Of a DNA stretch of 22,667 nt, positions 1,123 through 21,562 are shown one piece after another (positions within the stretch are counted from its first letter, which is position 1; each line of letters begins with the position of its first letter). The position numbers and the translations under genes are program-made. The DNA lies in IMG/VR virus record IMGVR_UViG_3300025889_001030, positions 1-22,667 of that record; one strand, 5' to 3'. The notes beneath the pieces are model-generated. The model saw only the letters and a program-made list of their open reading frames with translations, was not told the origin of the DNA and did no database searches. The stretch comes from a virus.

Positions 1123-1544
1123 GGCCGGTCGACCGCATCAACGCGATGGCCGAGGAGATGGGCAAGCCATGTGCGCGGGGCATGATCCACCCATCCCACG
1201 CACTCGCGGCCATCACGCGATCGGTCGTCAGGATCGACACGGAACGCCCGCCCGATCTGCCCATCCATTTCACCGTGGCCGGCACCATCCACACCGCCCA
1301 TGGCATCCTCAAGCGAGCGGCCAAGGCCCACGTCGACCGCATGAACGCGACCCGCCGTGCCATCCAAAAGGACGCCATGGCACGCCTGGAACAGCGCCAG
1401 CCGGCAAACGCGATCCGAGCCGAAGCCCACAACATCAACGGCGAAGCCGGGTTCCCGCTCATGGAGCATCAGGTGGAAGAACAGGTACGCGCAGCCGCAG
1501 AAATCATTATGAAGCGCCGCGCCGAGGCGCCCCATGCCCAATGA
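1119..1544 (+). CDS. Unrecognised phage protein in replication cluster
   Basis: This encodes 141 residues from ATG 1119, chosen because it forms an ATGA overlap with the preceding stop; an in-frame start at 1047 would overlap the previous gene by 76 bases and add an arginine-rich, shadow-like N-terminus. The protein is soluble, mixed charged and largely helical after residue 60. Its C-terminal part, around EHQVEEQVRAAAEIIMKRR, could form an amphipathic helix. No domain or motif is recognised. The 3' end overlaps the helicase gene by 11 bases, so the two are probably translated together and the protein may assist replication. That is inferred from position only. Confidence 0.65.
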   Translation: MRPVDRINAMAEEMGKPCARGMIHPSHALAAITRSVVRIDTERPPDLPIHFTVAGTIHTAHGILKRAAKAHVDRMNATRRAIQKDAMARLEQRQPANAIRAEAHNINGEAGFPLMEHQVEEQVRAAAEIIMKRRAEAPHAQ

Positions 1545-2754
1545 CCCAGTGGCCGACATCCTCGCCCTACCCGTCCCACGGCGGCCCGTCATGGTCGACA
1601 CCGCACAGCCCAAGGCCCTCTGGCGGCACAAGGGCGGATGGAGCGAAGCGGACATCCCACCGCGCCGATGGATCGTCCCGCGCTACCTCATGCGCGGCTC
1701 GGTCTCCCTGATCGCTGGCCCCGGTTCCGCCGGGAAATCATCGCTGATCAAAGCCTGGATGGTGGCGCTGGCGTTCGGCCAGCCGTTTAGCCGGTTCCAG
1801 GTCACTACGCCGATGAAGGTCCTGTCCTACAACGTCGAGGACAACCTCCAGGAGGAGCAGCGCCGGACAAGTTCGACCCTCCGCCAGTTTCACCGCACGT
1901 CGGAAGAAATCCCCGACACGCTCCAATTCATTGGGCCCACCCATATAGGCGTGCTGGTACAGCGAGACGCGGTCACCGGCTTCGTGGTCAATCAGCCGGC
2001 CATGGACGAGCTTATCGCCATCCTCGATGAGTTCCGCCCGGACGTGCTGATCCTGGACCCGCTGGTCGAACTGCACACCGCCGATGAGAATGACAACACC
2101 GGCATTCGCGCCGTCATCGCGACGTTCCGCGCCTTGGCCGTCCAATACGACTGCGCCATCCTAATCGCGCACCACGTCCGCAAAGGCACGCTCTCCCCAG
2201 GCGAGCCCGATGGCATCCGAGGCGGCGGGTCCATCGTCGGTGCCGTCCGATCAGCCTTTACACTGTTGCCCATGACGGAGGAAGAAGCCGGGCGCCTGAA
2301 CGTCGATCCAAAGCGCCGCCGCTGGTATTTCCGCCTCGATGACGCCAAGCAGAACTATGCGCCCATCGAGGACGCCGAATGGTTCCAACGCCAGGTCTAC
2401 ACGCTGGGCAATGACGAGGAAGTCGTCGCAGCCGAGCCCTGGCAACCCCCTTCGCCGTGGGACGGCCTCACGTGGCCCATGATCGACGCCATCCTGGACC
2501 GCATCAACGCTGGCCTCACGGACGGTCGACACTACGTCCTAAGCCGTCAGGCCAAGGATCGCTGGGTCGGAGCGGTGGTCATGGACGTGGCCGGAAAGTC
2601 CGATGGCCAGGCCGCTACCATCGTCAGGAAGTGGCACGAGGAAGGCGTCCTATACACTAACACGGCGCGCAACCCCGTTATCAGGAAAGACGAGGTTGTC
2701 GTCCTGGCGGACACCGCGAAGATGGCTACCATGCGGGCCGGGGGGGATGCGTGA
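1534..2754 (+). CDS. RepA-like hexameric helicase / AAA-type ATPase
   Basis: This encodes 406 residues. A Walker A motif GPGSAGKSS lies at residues 62-70 and a Walker B strand VLILDP at 171-176. A sensor-like IAHHVRK follows at 211-217, then a glycine-rich segment (GIRGGGSIVGAVRSAF) at 228-243. This order matches RepA/RSF1010-type and DnaB-like RecA-fold replicative helicases, which unwind DNA with ATP hydrolysis. The N-terminal 50 residues and the C-terminal ~150 residues (a possible winged helix) are not recognised. The gene overlaps its upstream neighbour and is followed directly by a repeat-rich non-coding segment, which fits a replication module with an origin nearby. A DNA-repair RecA-like ATPase is an alternative. 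Confidence 0.85.
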   Translation: MPNDPVADILALPVPRRPVMVDTAQPKALWRHKGGWSEADIPPRRWIVPRYLMRGSVSLIAGPGSAGKSSLIKAWMVALAFGQPFSRFQVTTPMKVLSYNVEDNLQEEQRRTSSTLRQFHRTSEEIPDTLQFIGPTHIGVLVQRDAVTGFVVNQPAMDELIAILDEFRPDVLILDPLVELHTADENDNTGIRAVIATFRALAVQYDCAILIAHHVRKGTLSPGEPDGIRGGGSIVGAVRSAFTLLPMTEEEAGRLNVDPKRRRWYFRLDDAKQNYAPIEDAEWFQRQVYTLGNDEEVVAAEPWQPPSPWDGLTWPMIDAILDRINAGLTDGRHYVLSRQAKDRWVGAVVMDVAGKSDGQAATIVRKWHEEGVLYTNTARNPVIRKDEVVVLADTAKMATMRAGGDA

Positions 2755-2772
2755 CGGTATCAGGACACCGCC

Positions 2773-2814
2773 AGAAGTACGCGGAGAACCTCGCAGAACC
2801 TCGCGCGTACTTCT
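2773..2814. repeat. 11-bp inverted repeat enclosing a tandem 10-bp repeat
   Basis: AGAAGTACGCG (2773-2783) is the exact reverse complement of CGCGTACTTCT (2804-2814). The intervening bases are essentially two tandem copies of AGAACCTCGC (2785-2794 and 2795-2804). The core AACCTCGC recurs at 2838-2845 and, with one change, at 2932-2939, giving an iteron-like series. It begins 19 bases after the helicase stop codon. Confidence 0.75.
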
Positions 2815-2816
2815 CA

Positions 2817-2926
2817 AACGCCCTAGTAGAACCACGCAACCTCGCACTCGCGAGGAAGTGCGCAAGAAGCACGCACTTCCTCGCATGCGCGAGTCTGCTG
2901 TTGCGTGGTCCCCAGGCTAGGGCGTT
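2817..2926. repeat. Nested ~110-nt palindrome, candidate origin or structured RNA
   Basis: Four perfect arm pairs are nested inside one another: AACGCCCTAG 2817-2826 with 2917-2926; ACCACGCAAC 2831-2840 with 2900-2909; CTCGC 2841-2845 with 2889-2893; and a 13-bp pair 2850-2862 with 2872-2884 around a 9-base loop. Together they give about 38 base pairs separated by small internal loops. No run of T follows, so it is not a standard intrinsic terminator. It lies between the helicase gene and the next gene, where a replication origin, a structured RNA or a protein-binding site is plausible. Nothing convincing is encoded between 2755 and 3012. Confidence 0.75.
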
Positions 2927-3012
2927 GCCCGAACCTTGCGGCGATCCTCGCGGATGGATGCTTGGGGAATGTTAGTTGGAAGCCGCATCGCAATCACAAC
3001 GGAGGCACGGAA

Positions 3013-3471
3013 ATGACGGACGAGGAACTGATGGGCTGGATGATCGAAGGCGGGTGGATTGATTCCAGGAAGTGTCCTCCGGGACCAAATGCCGTGGTGG
3101 AGTGGTCCAGGTTGGGAGGTGTCGGGCCGATTAAAGTCACGGATATGCCGTCTCGGGTAGATAGCCTAGACTACGTGTACTGGCGCCACCCCAGGCCGGT
3201 TGATGAGCCAAAGCCCCCCCGTGATCCGCTGGCAGGCTGGCGGGCATGGCTGGCACGGATTGAGGCCGCCGAGGGCGTTACTGAGGCGGATGTAACCGGC
3301 GGCGCACCGGTTTCGCGCCCGAAGCCAAATTACGCGCGGATCATCCACGCATGGCACGTGCCGTCCGGCCCGCTCTATGTTCTGGACGAAAGGGGGCGTG
3401 TGTGGGCTCTGGTTGGGGGCGGATGGATGGAAATTGCATCCTACCCGCCTGGGTGTGATCCTCGGGGGTGA
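3013..3471 (+). CDS. Unrecognised phage protein
   Basis: This encodes 152 residues from ATG 3013, placed by a GGAGG ribosome binding site at 3001-3005. The longer in-frame start at 2905 falls inside the palindrome arms and is rejected. The N-terminus is acidic (MTDEELMGWMIEGGWID). A proline-rich linker (RPVDEPKPPRDP) sits near residue 63, a short helix follows (LAGWRAWLARIEAAEG), and the end is beta-like (GPLYVLDERGRVWALVGGGWMEI). The last part resembles the beta-rich repeat found in some phage proteins of unknown role. No function can be assigned. It is the first gene of the accessory block and may be expressed apart from the helicase gene because of the 258-base gap. Confidence 0.7.
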   Translation: MTDEELMGWMIEGGWIDSRKCPPGPNAVVEWSRLGGVGPIKVTDMPSRVDSLDYVYWRHPRPVDEPKPPRDPLAGWRAWLARIEAAEGVTEADVTGGAPVSRPKPNYARIIHAWHVPSGPLYVLDERGRVWALVGGGWMEIASYPPGCDPRG

Positions 3472-3473
3472 TT

Positions 3474-3509
3474 GGGGTAACCGGTAATCAGGAAGTTACC
3501 GGTTACCCC
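3474..3509. repeat. 14-bp perfect inverted repeat directly after a stop codon
   Basis: GGGGTAACCGGTAA (3474-3487) pairs perfectly with TTACCGGTTACCCC (3496-3509) around an 8-base loop. It begins two bases after the stop of the upstream gene. There is no T-run afterwards, so it could be a factor-assisted terminator, an mRNA-stabilising hairpin, or a protein-binding site. Confidence 0.75.
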
Positions 3510-3524: not shown

Positions 3525-3570
3525 TACCTGCTCGATCCACCTGCTGGACTCAAATTGGATCGAGCAGGTA
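3525..3570. repeat. 15-bp perfect inverted repeat with 16-base spacer
   Basis: TACCTGCTCGATCCA (3525-3539) is exactly repeated in inverted form as TGGATCGAGCAGGTA (3556-3570). It lies between the preceding hairpin and the first promoter-like cassette. It could be an operator for a dimeric regulator or a second hairpin of a terminator region. Confidence 0.75.
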
Positions 3571-3590
3571 AATCGAGCACCCCACACCAT

Positions 3591-3672
3591 CCCCAAAATT
3601 GCACATTTCCCCTTGACGCCCGTGCACGAGCGTTGCACAGTGCGTGCATCGGGACGGGATGGCCGGACCGGG
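3591..3672 (+). promoter_or_regulatory. Promoter-like repeat cassette, copy 1
   Basis: This ~82-bp segment is repeated with about seven mismatches at 4106-4187, offset 515 bases. It holds a TTGACG hexamer (3613-3618) resembling a -35 box, and 15 bases downstream a conserved GTTGCACAGTG element containing a dyad, TGCAC/GTGCA. Both copies end just before the ribosome binding site of a small gene. Conservation in this position suggests a promoter with an operator. The -10 box is not canonical. Confidence 0.5.
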
Positions 3673-4054: not shown

Positions 4055-4105
4055 CCCAGGGTTTCGGCCCGCGCGCGCGGTGATGGCGCCAACCCACCGC
4101 CCCCA

Positions 4106-4187
4106 CCCCAAAATTGCACATTTCCTCTTGACGCCCGCGCACTCATGTTGCACAGTGTGTGCATCGGGACGGGATGGCCGGACCGGA
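4106..4187 (+). promoter_or_regulatory. Promoter-like repeat cassette, copy 2
   Basis: This is the second copy of the cassette at 3591-3672. TTGACG (4128-4133) is kept. The downstream dyad is better formed here: TGCACA, GTG, TGTGCA (4150-4164). A GC tract (CCGCGCGCGCGGTG) also precedes both copies at a distance. It precedes the gene starting at 4202, whose GGAGG lies at 4191-4195. The spacing to the gene start is nearly the same as in copy 1. Confidence 0.5.
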
Positions 4188-5765: not shown

Positions 5766-5819
5766 ACGTTATAACATAACACACAACACGCTTGATGTGC
5801 GGAACGTTATAACATAACA
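5766..5819. promoter_or_regulatory. Pair of 16-bp direct repeats in AT-rich island before packaging genes
   Basis: ACGTTATAACATAACA occurs twice, at 5766-5781 and 5804-5819, 38 bases apart. Each copy contains the palindrome GTTATAAC and a TATAAC hexamer like a -10 box, but no well-spaced -35 box is seen. The position between the terminator and the first late gene at 5830 suggests a control site for late transcription. A packaging-related recognition site is an alternative. Confidence 0.5.
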
Positions 5820-5829
5820 ATCCGGACCC

Positions 5830-6216
5830 ATGGCGAAATCGACCTCACCAGGGACGCGGTATGGGAAGGGCACCGGTTGGGGTGGCCCTGCGAAAGGGCC
5901 CGGTAACGGGAAGCCCAGCTTTGTTGAGGATCAGTCACTCATGAGCCGCACCGGTCGTCAGAGGGTTGAGCCGGGCACCCTGACTTTCATCGAAGCGAAA
6001 GCGTTGGCCCGCGCGATGCAGGCCGAGGCGGTGCAGGACAACATCCTCCGCATTGCCTTGGAGGGCCGCACCGAGCGCGATCAGATCGCCGCCGGCACCG
6101 CGTTCATGAACCGCGTGATGGGCATGCCAGTCGCGGCCAACATCAACATGGATGGTGGCCCGATCAACGTCACCGTCCGGCGGTTCGGGGAGGATGACGA
6201 TGCTCCGGCCGAGTGA
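5830..6216 (+). CDS. Putative terminase small subunit
   Basis: This encodes 128 residues. The N-terminus is rich in glycine, lysine and proline (SPGTRYGKGTGWGGPAKGPG). The central helical part (ALARAMQAEAVQDNILRIALEGRTERDQIAAGTAFMNRVMGMP, about residues 56-100) looks like the helical repeat found in several phage small terminase proteins, which recognise the viral DNA for packaging. The main support is its position two genes before the large terminase gene. The ribosome binding site is weak. If not a small terminase, it is a small DNA-binding phage protein. The function is a reasoned guess. Confidence 0.5.
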   Translation: MAKSTSPGTRYGKGTGWGGPAKGPGNGKPSFVEDQSLMSRTGRQRVEPGTLTFIEAKALARAMQAEAVQDNILRIALEGRTERDQIAAGTAFMNRVMGMPVAANINMDGGPINVTVRRFGEDDDAPAE

Positions 6217-19554: not shown

Positions 19555-20840
19555 TGGCAGGCGGCGGCAAGGGCGGCGGATCGGCACCCACCCCTCCCGA
19601 TCCCGTGAAAACGGCGCAGGCGCAGTCGGCAGCCAATGCCGAAACCGCCCGCGTGCAAGGCGCGATGAACCGCGTCAACCAATACACGCCGTATGGCAAC
19701 ATCACATGGCAGCCGAACCCACAGAACCAGGCGTGGGTGGACCAGCAGCTTGCGGCGGCAAAGGATTTCCGCACCAAGGCCGGCACGCTGGACACGTGGG
19801 ACGAAGCCGGGGATCGGAAATACTTCATGGAGCAGTCGCCTTATCGCGACAGCTACAACATGACGACGGAACTGTCTCCGGCGCAGAAAATCCTGCAAAC
19901 CTACCAGGAATACGGCCAGGGCAAGTATGGCGAGGCGGCGGCGAACCAACTCGACAAGCTCTCCGGCGCCCTATCCACGCCATTCCAGGGGCAGCCCTAC
20001 GCGTCCCGGACTGATGCCCTCGGCCAGATGGCGCAGGATCGCATCGGGGCGTTGAACAACCTCCCTGGGTTCCAGGACACCACGGGGGGCTATCGCACCG
20101 CCGCTGGCGACATGAGCCTGGACGCTGCCCAGAAGGCGGCAGGACTGGCCGGGCAGCCGATCAACACGGACTACAACGCCGTTCGGCAACAGGCGATCGA
20201 CGCGGCCAACTCCCGGCTCAATCCGCAATTCGCGCAGGATGAGGAGAGCATGCGCGCCCGGCTGCTGGCGTCGGGCCATGCCGAGGGATCGAAGGGGTGG
20301 GAGAACGCCTATCGGACGTTCAATCAGGGCCGAAACGATGCCCGGATGCAGACGATCCTCAATGCGGAGAACCTGGCCGGCCAATCGATCCAGCAGACCG
20401 GGGCGTTGCGCGGGATCCCAATGGGGGAACTGTCGCAGGTGCAGGGCATGGCCGGGAACCTCGGCAACGTCGCCGGCACGATCCAAGGCCAGAACATGGC
20501 CAACTATCAGATGCCGTTTCAAACCGGGCAGAACATCATCGGTCTCGCGGGGCAGGGCGCGAACCTCGCCAATCAGGGGTTCAATCAGGCTATCGCGACC
20601 CGCAATCAGCCCTTGAACGAGACCGCCGCGCTGCTGACCGGAAACATGGTCCAGACGCCACAGTCGCAGGCGATCCCGACAACGCAGGTGGCGCCAACAG
20701 ACCTGATCAACGCGACCATGGGCAGCTACGGCGGGCAACTTCAGGCCTACAACGCGCAACAGCAAGCGGCGGCAGCGAACATGGGCGGCCTGTATGGACT
20801 GGCCAGCACGGGCGTTATGGCAGCGGGGATGTATTTCTGA
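19554..20840 (+). CDS. Internal virion/ejection-type protein
   Basis: This encodes 428 residues from ATG 19554, which overlaps the previous stop, with AAGGAAG upstream; a longer frame reaching to 19233 runs over the preceding gene and is rejected. The protein is rich in alanine, glutamine, asparagine and glycine. Its N-terminus is glycine-rich (MAGGGKGGGSAP), much of the rest appears helical, and the C-terminus ends with a hydrophobic segment (MGGLYGLASTGVMAAGMYF). This is the composition of proteins ejected with the DNA in short-tailed phages. The position before the transglycosylase is the usual one. No motif gives an activity. Confidence 0.6.
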   Translation: MAGGGKGGGSAPTPPDPVKTAQAQSAANAETARVQGAMNRVNQYTPYGNITWQPNPQNQAWVDQQLAAAKDFRTKAGTLDTWDEAGDRKYFMEQSPYRDSYNMTTELSPAQKILQTYQEYGQGKYGEAAANQLDKLSGALSTPFQGQPYASRTDALGQMAQDRIGALNNLPGFQDTTGGYRTAAGDMSLDAAQKAAGLAGQPINTDYNAVRQQAIDAANSRLNPQFAQDEESMRARLLASGHAEGSKGWENAYRTFNQGRNDARMQTILNAENLAGQSIQQTGALRGIPMGELSQVQGMAGNLGNVAGTIQGQNMANYQMPFQTGQNIIGLAGQGANLANQGFNQAIATRNQPLNETAALLTGNMVQTPQSQAIPTTQVAPTDLINATMGSYGGQLQAYNAQQQAAAANMGGLYGLASTGVMAAGMYF

Positions 20841-21562
20841 TGGAACCGCTGTCCCGCCACCAGAAGATCATGCTGTCATTCTCGGGGGGCAAGGATAGCC
20901 TCGCGTGCCTGTATCTGCTGCGGGATCATTGGCCCCGGATCGACGTCGTGTGGATGAACACGGGCGACGCCTTCCCCGCGACGATCGCCCTGATGGATCG
21001 GGTTCGCGCCATGGTGCCGCGCTTCGTCGAGTTGCGATCGGACCAGCCGGCGCAGATCGCACGTGAAGGCTGGCCGGTCGACGTTGTGCCCCTGACGCGG
21101 ACGCGGATCGGGCGGACGATCGACGGGCACGATAAGCAGTTGTTCCAATCTTACCTCGCATGTTGCAACGCGAATATGTGGACGCCGACGTCGGACTATG
21201 TCCGATCCTCCGGCACAACGCTGGTCATTCGGGGCACCCGGACGGCGGACGCAAAGAAGTCCCCGGTCCGAAGCGGTGATGTTGTGGGTGGCGTCGAGTT
21301 CTGGCACCCGATCGAACACTGGACAGCGGAGGAAGTGTTCGCGTTCCTGACGGTCAACGGGCACGAAATCCCGGCGCATTACAGGTTCACAAAAACCTCG
21401 CTGGATTGCCGGTTCTGCACCGCGCATCTTCCCGAAACGGGCGGGTTTATGGAATACGTTCGCCGGGACGTGCCGGAGATCGCGCCCGAGTTGCAGAGGC
21501 GCATCACGGAAATCCGCGACGCTTTGCGTGAGGAACTTCGCCATGTGGAAGGCTGCCTCTGA
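20840..21562 (+). CDS. PAPS/APS reductase-family PP-loop enzyme
   Basis: This encodes 240 residues from ATG 20840, overlapping the previous stop. The PP-loop SGGKDS lies at residues 15-20, which binds the ATP-type phosphates in the adenine-nucleotide alpha-hydrolase fold. A cysteine pair CC at 108-109 and CRFC at 190-193 are separated by exactly 80 residues, the CC-X80-CXXC pattern that binds a [4Fe-4S] cluster in APS reductases and related enzymes. The C-terminal ECGLH motif of sulfonucleotide reductases is absent, though the sequence ends EGCL. Possible roles are sulfur transfer or nucleotide/nucleic-acid modification. A true sulfate-assimilation role is not shown. It sits among virion genes. 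Confidence 0.85.
   Translation: MEPLSRHQKIMLSFSGGKDSLACLYLLRDHWPRIDVVWMNTGDAFPATIALMDRVRAMVPRFVELRSDQPAQIAREGWPVDVVPLTRTRIGRTIDGHDKQLFQSYLACCNANMWTPTSDYVRSSGTTLVIRGTRTADAKKSPVRSGDVVGGVEFWHPIEHWTAEEVFAFLTVNGHEIPAHYRFTKTSLDCRFCTAHLPETGGFMEYVRRDVPEIAPELQRRITEIRDALREELRHVEGCL

Follow-up and report, generated by a model that had tools for sequence, protein, structure and literature searches.

A probable iteron-type replication origin directly after a RepA-type helicase gene in a phage and its relatives

For most phages outside model systems, the origins and initiators of replication are unknown. In phage lambda, the iterons of ori-lambda are located within the gene of the initiator that reads them, the O protein, which is no helicase. 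P4 alpha, another initiator, is an SF3 helicase. Helicase, primase and the winged helix that binds repeats at the origin are all part of this one protein (PMC4234260). The replication protein of pRN1 (ORF904) likewise joins a primase and a helicase to a C-terminal winged helix, and replication requires a stem-loop of ~100 nt, poorly conserved in sequence, located just 3' of the replication gene; a stem-loop also follows the replication gene of Bordetella phage BIP-1 (PMC4234260). RSF1010 (IncQ) encodes RepC, RepA and RepB' as separate proteins and has an origin with iterons and hairpins (PMC4234260, PMC4538821).

The window (the whole stretch of DNA that was analysed, 22,667 nucleotides) is a 22.7-kb phage record, which is a fragment. 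The stop codon of a helicase gene at 2752-2754 and the ATG of the following gene at 3013, both confirmed from the ORF coordinates, are separated by 258 nt, and this interval is occupied by an array of short repeats and palindromes. We consider it highly probable that positions 2755-3012 are the replication origin of the phage, placed directly after the gene of a RepA-type helicase that acts as its initiator. The features are as follows.

1534..2754, plus strand: RepA-type (AAA_25, RSF1010 RepA-like) helicase, 406 aa, proposed origin-binding initiator (Pfam, PDB, Foldseek)
2440..2751, plus strand: C-terminal winged-helix-like domain, residues 303-406, proposed to bind the iterons (AlphaFold, Foldseek)
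2548..2550, plus strand: codon of Q339, whose alignment column varies with iteron class family-wide (MI, tree test, held-out loci)
2755..3012, plus strand: the complete array of iterons and palindromes, proposed as replication origin (repeats, fold, same position in relatives)
2773..2814, plus strand: hairpin A, 11-bp arms enclosing two tandem iterons (read directly, folded)
2787..2795, plus strand: iteron AACCTCGCA, exact (this and the following copies by word scan)
2797..2805, plus strand: iteron AACCTCGCG, 1 mismatch, 10 bp past the preceding copy
2817..2926, plus strand: hairpin B, nested palindrome of ~110 nt (read directly, folded)
2830..2838, plus strand: iteron AACCACGCA, 1 mismatch
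2838..2846, plus strand: iteron AACCTCGCA, exact
2867..2875, plus strand: iteron-like AAGCACGCA, 2 mismatches
2877..2885, plus strand: iteron-like TTCCTCGCA, 2 mismatches; resembles TTCCGTGCA of the relatives
2902..2910, minus strand: iteron-like GACCACGCA, 2 mismatches, inverted
2932..2940, plus strand: iteron-like AACCTTGCG, 2 mismatches
2944..2952, plus strand: iteron-like ATCCTCGCG, 2 mismatches
3013..3471, plus strand: next gene, which bounds the array; 152 aa, GGAGG upstream of the ATG, no known family

The predicted gene order is of the temperate-phage type. Leftward ERF-like and YqaJ-like recombination genes were read from the ORFs of the window, a YdaS/Cro-like repressor gene and methyltransferase genes precede the helicase, later genes and head genes come after it, and the array sits within a rightward gene run. 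The 152-aa gene 3013..3471 has no match in Pfam or PHROG. No primase was identified in the fragment that the record represents, and none of the genes scanned around the helicase is RepC-like or RepB'-like. A second record (L097) is 99.8% identical across the shared part and reaches 7.5 kb further left.

The window contains several further elements. Downstream of gene 3013..3471 lie two perfect inverted repeats, of 14 and 15 bp, at 3474-3509 and 3525-3570, and the plus-strand folding window from 3451 has the most stable fold in the entire record. A 90-bp element, possibly a phage promoter or operator, occurs twice with 88% identity (3582-3671 and 4097-4186), each time upstream of a small gene and with a TTGAC-like stretch. 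The sequence ACGTTATAACATAACA is present at 5766-5781 and 5804-5819, 38 bp apart, between a terminator-like hairpin and a gene that starts at 5830. Among the late genes, an ORF at about 20840-21562 contains SFSGGKDS, which recalls PAPS-reductase-like proteins by motif resemblance alone.

The helicase matches Pfam AAA_25 (E = 2.6e-34) and PHROG 25693 (E = 1.2e-78), a family listed as of unknown function. Its sole sequence relative in the PDB at a convincing E-value is RSF1010 RepA (1g8y/1nlf/1olo, E = 1.6e-23), which also provides the top Foldseek matches (1nlf, E = 4e-15). The core is that of an RSF1010 RepA-type (SF4/AAA_25) hexameric helicase and not of an SF3 helicase such as P4 alpha-like initiators possess. 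The RSF1010 RepA match spans profile positions 49-295, and the C-terminal domain lies outside it. AlphaFold models reach a pLDDT of 90.4 for the whole helicase and 91.5 for the C-terminal domain modelled alone; in both, the domain has the H-H-H-beta-beta-H topology of the winged-helix type, with residue 339 immediately preceding the second helix. The best Foldseek matches of the domain are mostly winged-helix DNA-binding proteins, all at E > 0.02. The helicase is predicted to have a winged-helix-like C-terminal domain that RSF1010 RepA lacks.

When up to two mismatches to AACCTCGCA are allowed, a 9-bp word with a consensus near AACCTCGCA occurs nine times in the 258 nt compared to 0.86 copies expected. 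The copies are mostly on the plus strand, with spacings between neighbours of 8, 10, 10 and 12 bp. The preliminary description had reported four copies of a core, and all four are present, AACCTCGC being exact at 2787, 2797 and 2838 and the one-change form AACCTTGC lying at 2932, although the count is in fact about nine at two mismatches. There are two strong hairpins in the interval. In hairpin A, the 11-bp inverted repeat AGAAGTACGCG (2773-2783) and CGCGTACTTCT (2804-2814) flanks a tandem AGAACCTCGC AGAACCTCGC, and the outer arms of the nested palindrome in hairpin B are AACGCCCTAG (2817-2826) and CTAGGGCGTT (2917-2926). On direct reading, every element described earlier was found in its place. 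The interval has the make-up of an iteron origin, with several short replicon-specific repeats adjoining the gene of the proposed initiator.

The group formed by this phage and its relatives resembles P4 alpha, pRN1 and RSF1010 in its proposed working and belongs to none of them. As in P4 alpha, a helicase shares one protein with a predicted winged-helix-like domain that is proposed to bind the origin repeats; unlike P4 alpha, this helicase belongs to the RSF1010 RepA type (SF4), only some members have a fused primase, and the array, built around palindromes, directly follows the gene. Hairpins A and B are large stem-loops directly 3' of the replication gene, as in the archaeal plasmid pRN1 and in Bordetella BIP-1/BPP-1, where the gene encodes a protein with primase, helicase and a C-terminal winged helix. 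Those systems, however, have an SF3 helicase and no iterons were found in them, whereas here the helicase is of the RepA type and iterons are the main feature, with a word that tracks the protein. RSF1010 has a homologous helicase core as well as iterons and hairpins at its origin, as at the origin proposed here, and its oriV combines the iterons with ssiA/ssiB; its iterons are bound by a separate RepC and its primase is also separate, whereas here we propose that iteron binding is fused to the helicase. Similarly to lambda, the phage would have an origin of iterons read by a phage initiator, but here the helicase itself appears to be that initiator and the array follows its gene. What sets the group apart, as proposed, is that an RSF1010-type ring helicase has its own DNA-reading domain fused to it and that its gene is followed by iterons and a palindrome. 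We found no description of such an array in open-access papers.

Scans with a three-member helicase alignment yielded 79 viral loci (the near-identical phage included) and 40 loci in bacterial genomes; an alignment built from eight distant members diverged too much to serve for scanning. The nearest helicase relatives are 41-52% identical, and prophages of Gluconobacter, Acetobacter and Lichenicoccus are among them. A repeat-and-palindrome score was run over each whole locus of ~10 kb; in 88 of 123 helicase loci, it peaks at the helicase stop. The stop-codon region tested covers ~3% of positions, so that about four of the 123 loci are expected by chance. After the helicase stop, equally large palindromes fold in most relatives, and hairpins resembling A and B are found; about a quarter of the relatives have no outstanding array there. 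The preliminary description had named an absence of conserved arms or repeats beside homologous helicase genes as a refutation. The arm sequences are indeed not conserved across relatives, but the architecture recurs in most of the 123 loci.

Repeat or palindrome maxima also follow the helicase in three phages outside the main group, namely Faecalibacterium phage FP_Lugh, Escherichia phage JL1 and Wolbachia phage WO (WOVitA2) (L222, L225 and L220, respectively), and five other tested phages have no such repeat maximum after the helicase. The closest relative (L098) carries a dense tandem repeat, CTGATCCC/CCCCGACC, in 14 copies upstream of the helicase at about 2673-3005.

Each phage has its own word of ~9 bp, which is 328-fold denser in the arrays than outside (430 copies of the top 8-mers in 28.7 kb of arrays compared to 34 in 743 kb outside). 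Neighbouring copies on the same strand are 8-12 bp apart in 176 of 318 cases. A palindrome of the CCYTWWRGG type (CCCTTTAGGG) is present in 47 of 82 arrays and in 80 of 1663 control windows; the hairpin core of the window array is without this centre. Words of different relatives include ACTGGAGCA, ACTGGCGCA, ACTGCGGCA, AGGTGGCGCA, AGGTGGGGCA and AGGTGAGGCA. Within the subfamily of the window phage, they are AAGCCATGCA, TTCCGTGCA, ATCCATGCA and ATCCGCGCA, and the window word AACCTCGCA fits the subfamily form xxCCxxGCA. Between the Gluconobacter and Acetobacter prophages, one word position has changed from A to G concertedly in four copies. Comparison among the loci reveals a conserved position and architecture, a replicon-specific word, its concerted change and, as detailed below, its covariation with a single residue, and it indicates that the word is read by a trans-acting factor.

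Four genomes each contain two such prophages (L302-L309; genomes G1199, G1425, G1006 and G1000). The helicases within a pair are 58-81% identical, and the words differ within each genome (AGGTGTGGCA/AGGTGCGGCA, GGTGCCGCA/ACTGGAGCA, GGTGCTGGA/AGGTGCGG and GGTGGGGAA/GTGGCGGA). These co-resident prophages, with related helicases and unlike words, look as if they were under incompatibility.

With high probability, the trans-acting reader of the word is the helicase. Phages with more similar C-terminal domains also have more similar words (Mantel r = 0.19, p = 0.0015), also in a test partial on the AAA core (p = 0.001), whereas the AAA core shows no such relation (r = 0.06, p = 0.16). A single column among 385, occupied by Q339 in the window and first noticed in a different alignment, tracks word class with a mutual information (MI) of 0.99 bit, compared to 0.40 for the next best column. 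Among loci with AGGTG words, 35 of 36 have Q in this column, and among those with ACT words, 26 of 29 have R or K; L147, L213 and possibly L235 are exceptions to the rule or doubtful. On the tree of the AAA core, word class requires at least 14 switches, of which 4 fall on branches with strong support. The residue moves with word class in 3.8 of 4 independent pairs and never in the opposite direction, four pairs being too few to reach significance. For a held-out test, loci were fetched afterwards, the class was predicted from the protein and the word was found from the DNA alone; all 9 non-redundant loci with an assignable word agree with the prediction, the remaining ones having too few copies or another word type. 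The residue code is a result for the wider family and not for the window phage, whose subfamily aligns poorly around position 339 and which has Q339, yet a word that is not of the AGGTG class in the chosen orientation. For the two bases that precede GCA, taken as another specificity position, no clear residue emerged.

The preliminary description had offered a structured RNA as a second reading, in which the hairpins act in the transcript as an antiterminator, attenuator, stability element or small RNA. The folding that it had proposed as a check returned a very stable structure for 2755-3012 (-114.4 kcal/mol, z = -4.96, with none of 200 shuffles as low). Among 752 stretches of 130 nt folded across the record, the one from 2821 is the most stable on the minus strand and ranks 5th on the plus strand, and the array does lie within a rightward gene run, as an RNA element would. 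However, the whole window has no Rfam match at the gathering threshold, and a tRNA search gave none. The terminator-like T-run is absent, as had been noted, with no terminator-like site detected in 2755-3012. Moreover, an RNA hairpin needs neither direct repeats on both strands nor a phage-specific word, and the word covaries with a residue in the C-terminal domain of the helicase. We therefore regard a structured RNA as very unlikely, the stability of the fold notwithstanding. Translation of the interval was also considered: a 74-aa GTG ORF that overlaps the helicase stop and two other overlapping ORFs have no significant relative in the loci fetched, and no conserved reading frame across the interval was found.

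Alternatively, the helicase domain or another phage protein could bind the array as an operator or partition site, for transcription control or segregation. The covariation speaks for recognition of the array whatever its purpose, and the words of co-resident prophages would differ for any replicon-specific site. On the other hand, the array is 3' of the helicase gene and clear of its promoter, the word is tracked by a replicative-type helicase, often accompanied by a primase, and known origins that similar proteins read take the form of a palindrome or of iterons next to the gene; an operator or partition role is highly improbable.

Searches for the exact sequence found the array only in the near-identical phage. 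The helicase and array had no blastn match among phage genomes, a search of IMG/VR with the hairpin-arm DNA pattern turned up the near-identical phage and, as the sole other match, an unrelated contig-end fold-back, and among the stretches fetched for 80 loci of terminase relatives, a homologous helicase or array occurs only in the near-identical phage. The contig-end hairpin (L092, 1-55) resembles an assembly fold-back rather than a biological match. A mobile palindromic element, or low complexity arising by chance in GC-rich phages, would fit a sequence that cannot be aligned across most phages and has its exact match in one near-identical contig only, but its likelihood is practically negligible, as position and covariation already contradict it, most relatives have their array at the same spot behind the helicase stop with a different, 328-fold enriched word in each, and shuffles never attain its repeat score (43, compared to a mean of 2.7 and a maximum of 22).

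An iteron replication origin beside the helicase gene, as the preliminary description had suggested, is the best-supported reading, given that the position recurs and the word tracks the C-terminal domain. We infer from these comparisons origin activity, DNA binding, strand opening and priming. The winged-helix-like domain of the helicase would bind the 9-bp iterons, about one helical turn apart, and this binding would assemble the helicase on duplex DNA beside the palindromes. Opening of the palindrome strands or extrusion of hairpins could then expose single strands on which the helicase ring is loaded, and a primase, fused or adjacent in several relatives, or the host primase would start synthesis. 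One relative (L181) has Prim-Pol and PriCT_2 fused to the helicase, and another (L094) has a Toprim primase gene just upstream of the helicase gene. The helicase-array module is also found on circular plasmids of Methylobacterium (L216, with phage genes present) and Microvirga (L217), in which no other initiator is annotated and none was detected among the subset of proteins scanned; a further plasmid with the helicase module (L218) also encodes repBC. A switch in GC skew, another of the checks proposed at the outset, did not materialize: there is only a local sign change at the array, and three complete circular relatives disagree.

For a broad group of phages, these results supply an origin and an initiator that can be put to the test, together with a proposed specificity residue and a sequence rule for finding origins. 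It seems likely that in a large, mostly alphaproteobacterial group of phages and prophages, a RepA-type ring helicase finds its own origin, with a winged-helix-like domain that reads a fast-evolving word, residue 339 (Q or R/K) setting the word class and differing words avoiding cross-talk. If this is true, sequence would be enough to locate the origin of such phages and to read part of their specificity, and related prophages that share a cell may stay apart through their different words, in a manner similar to plasmid compatibility.
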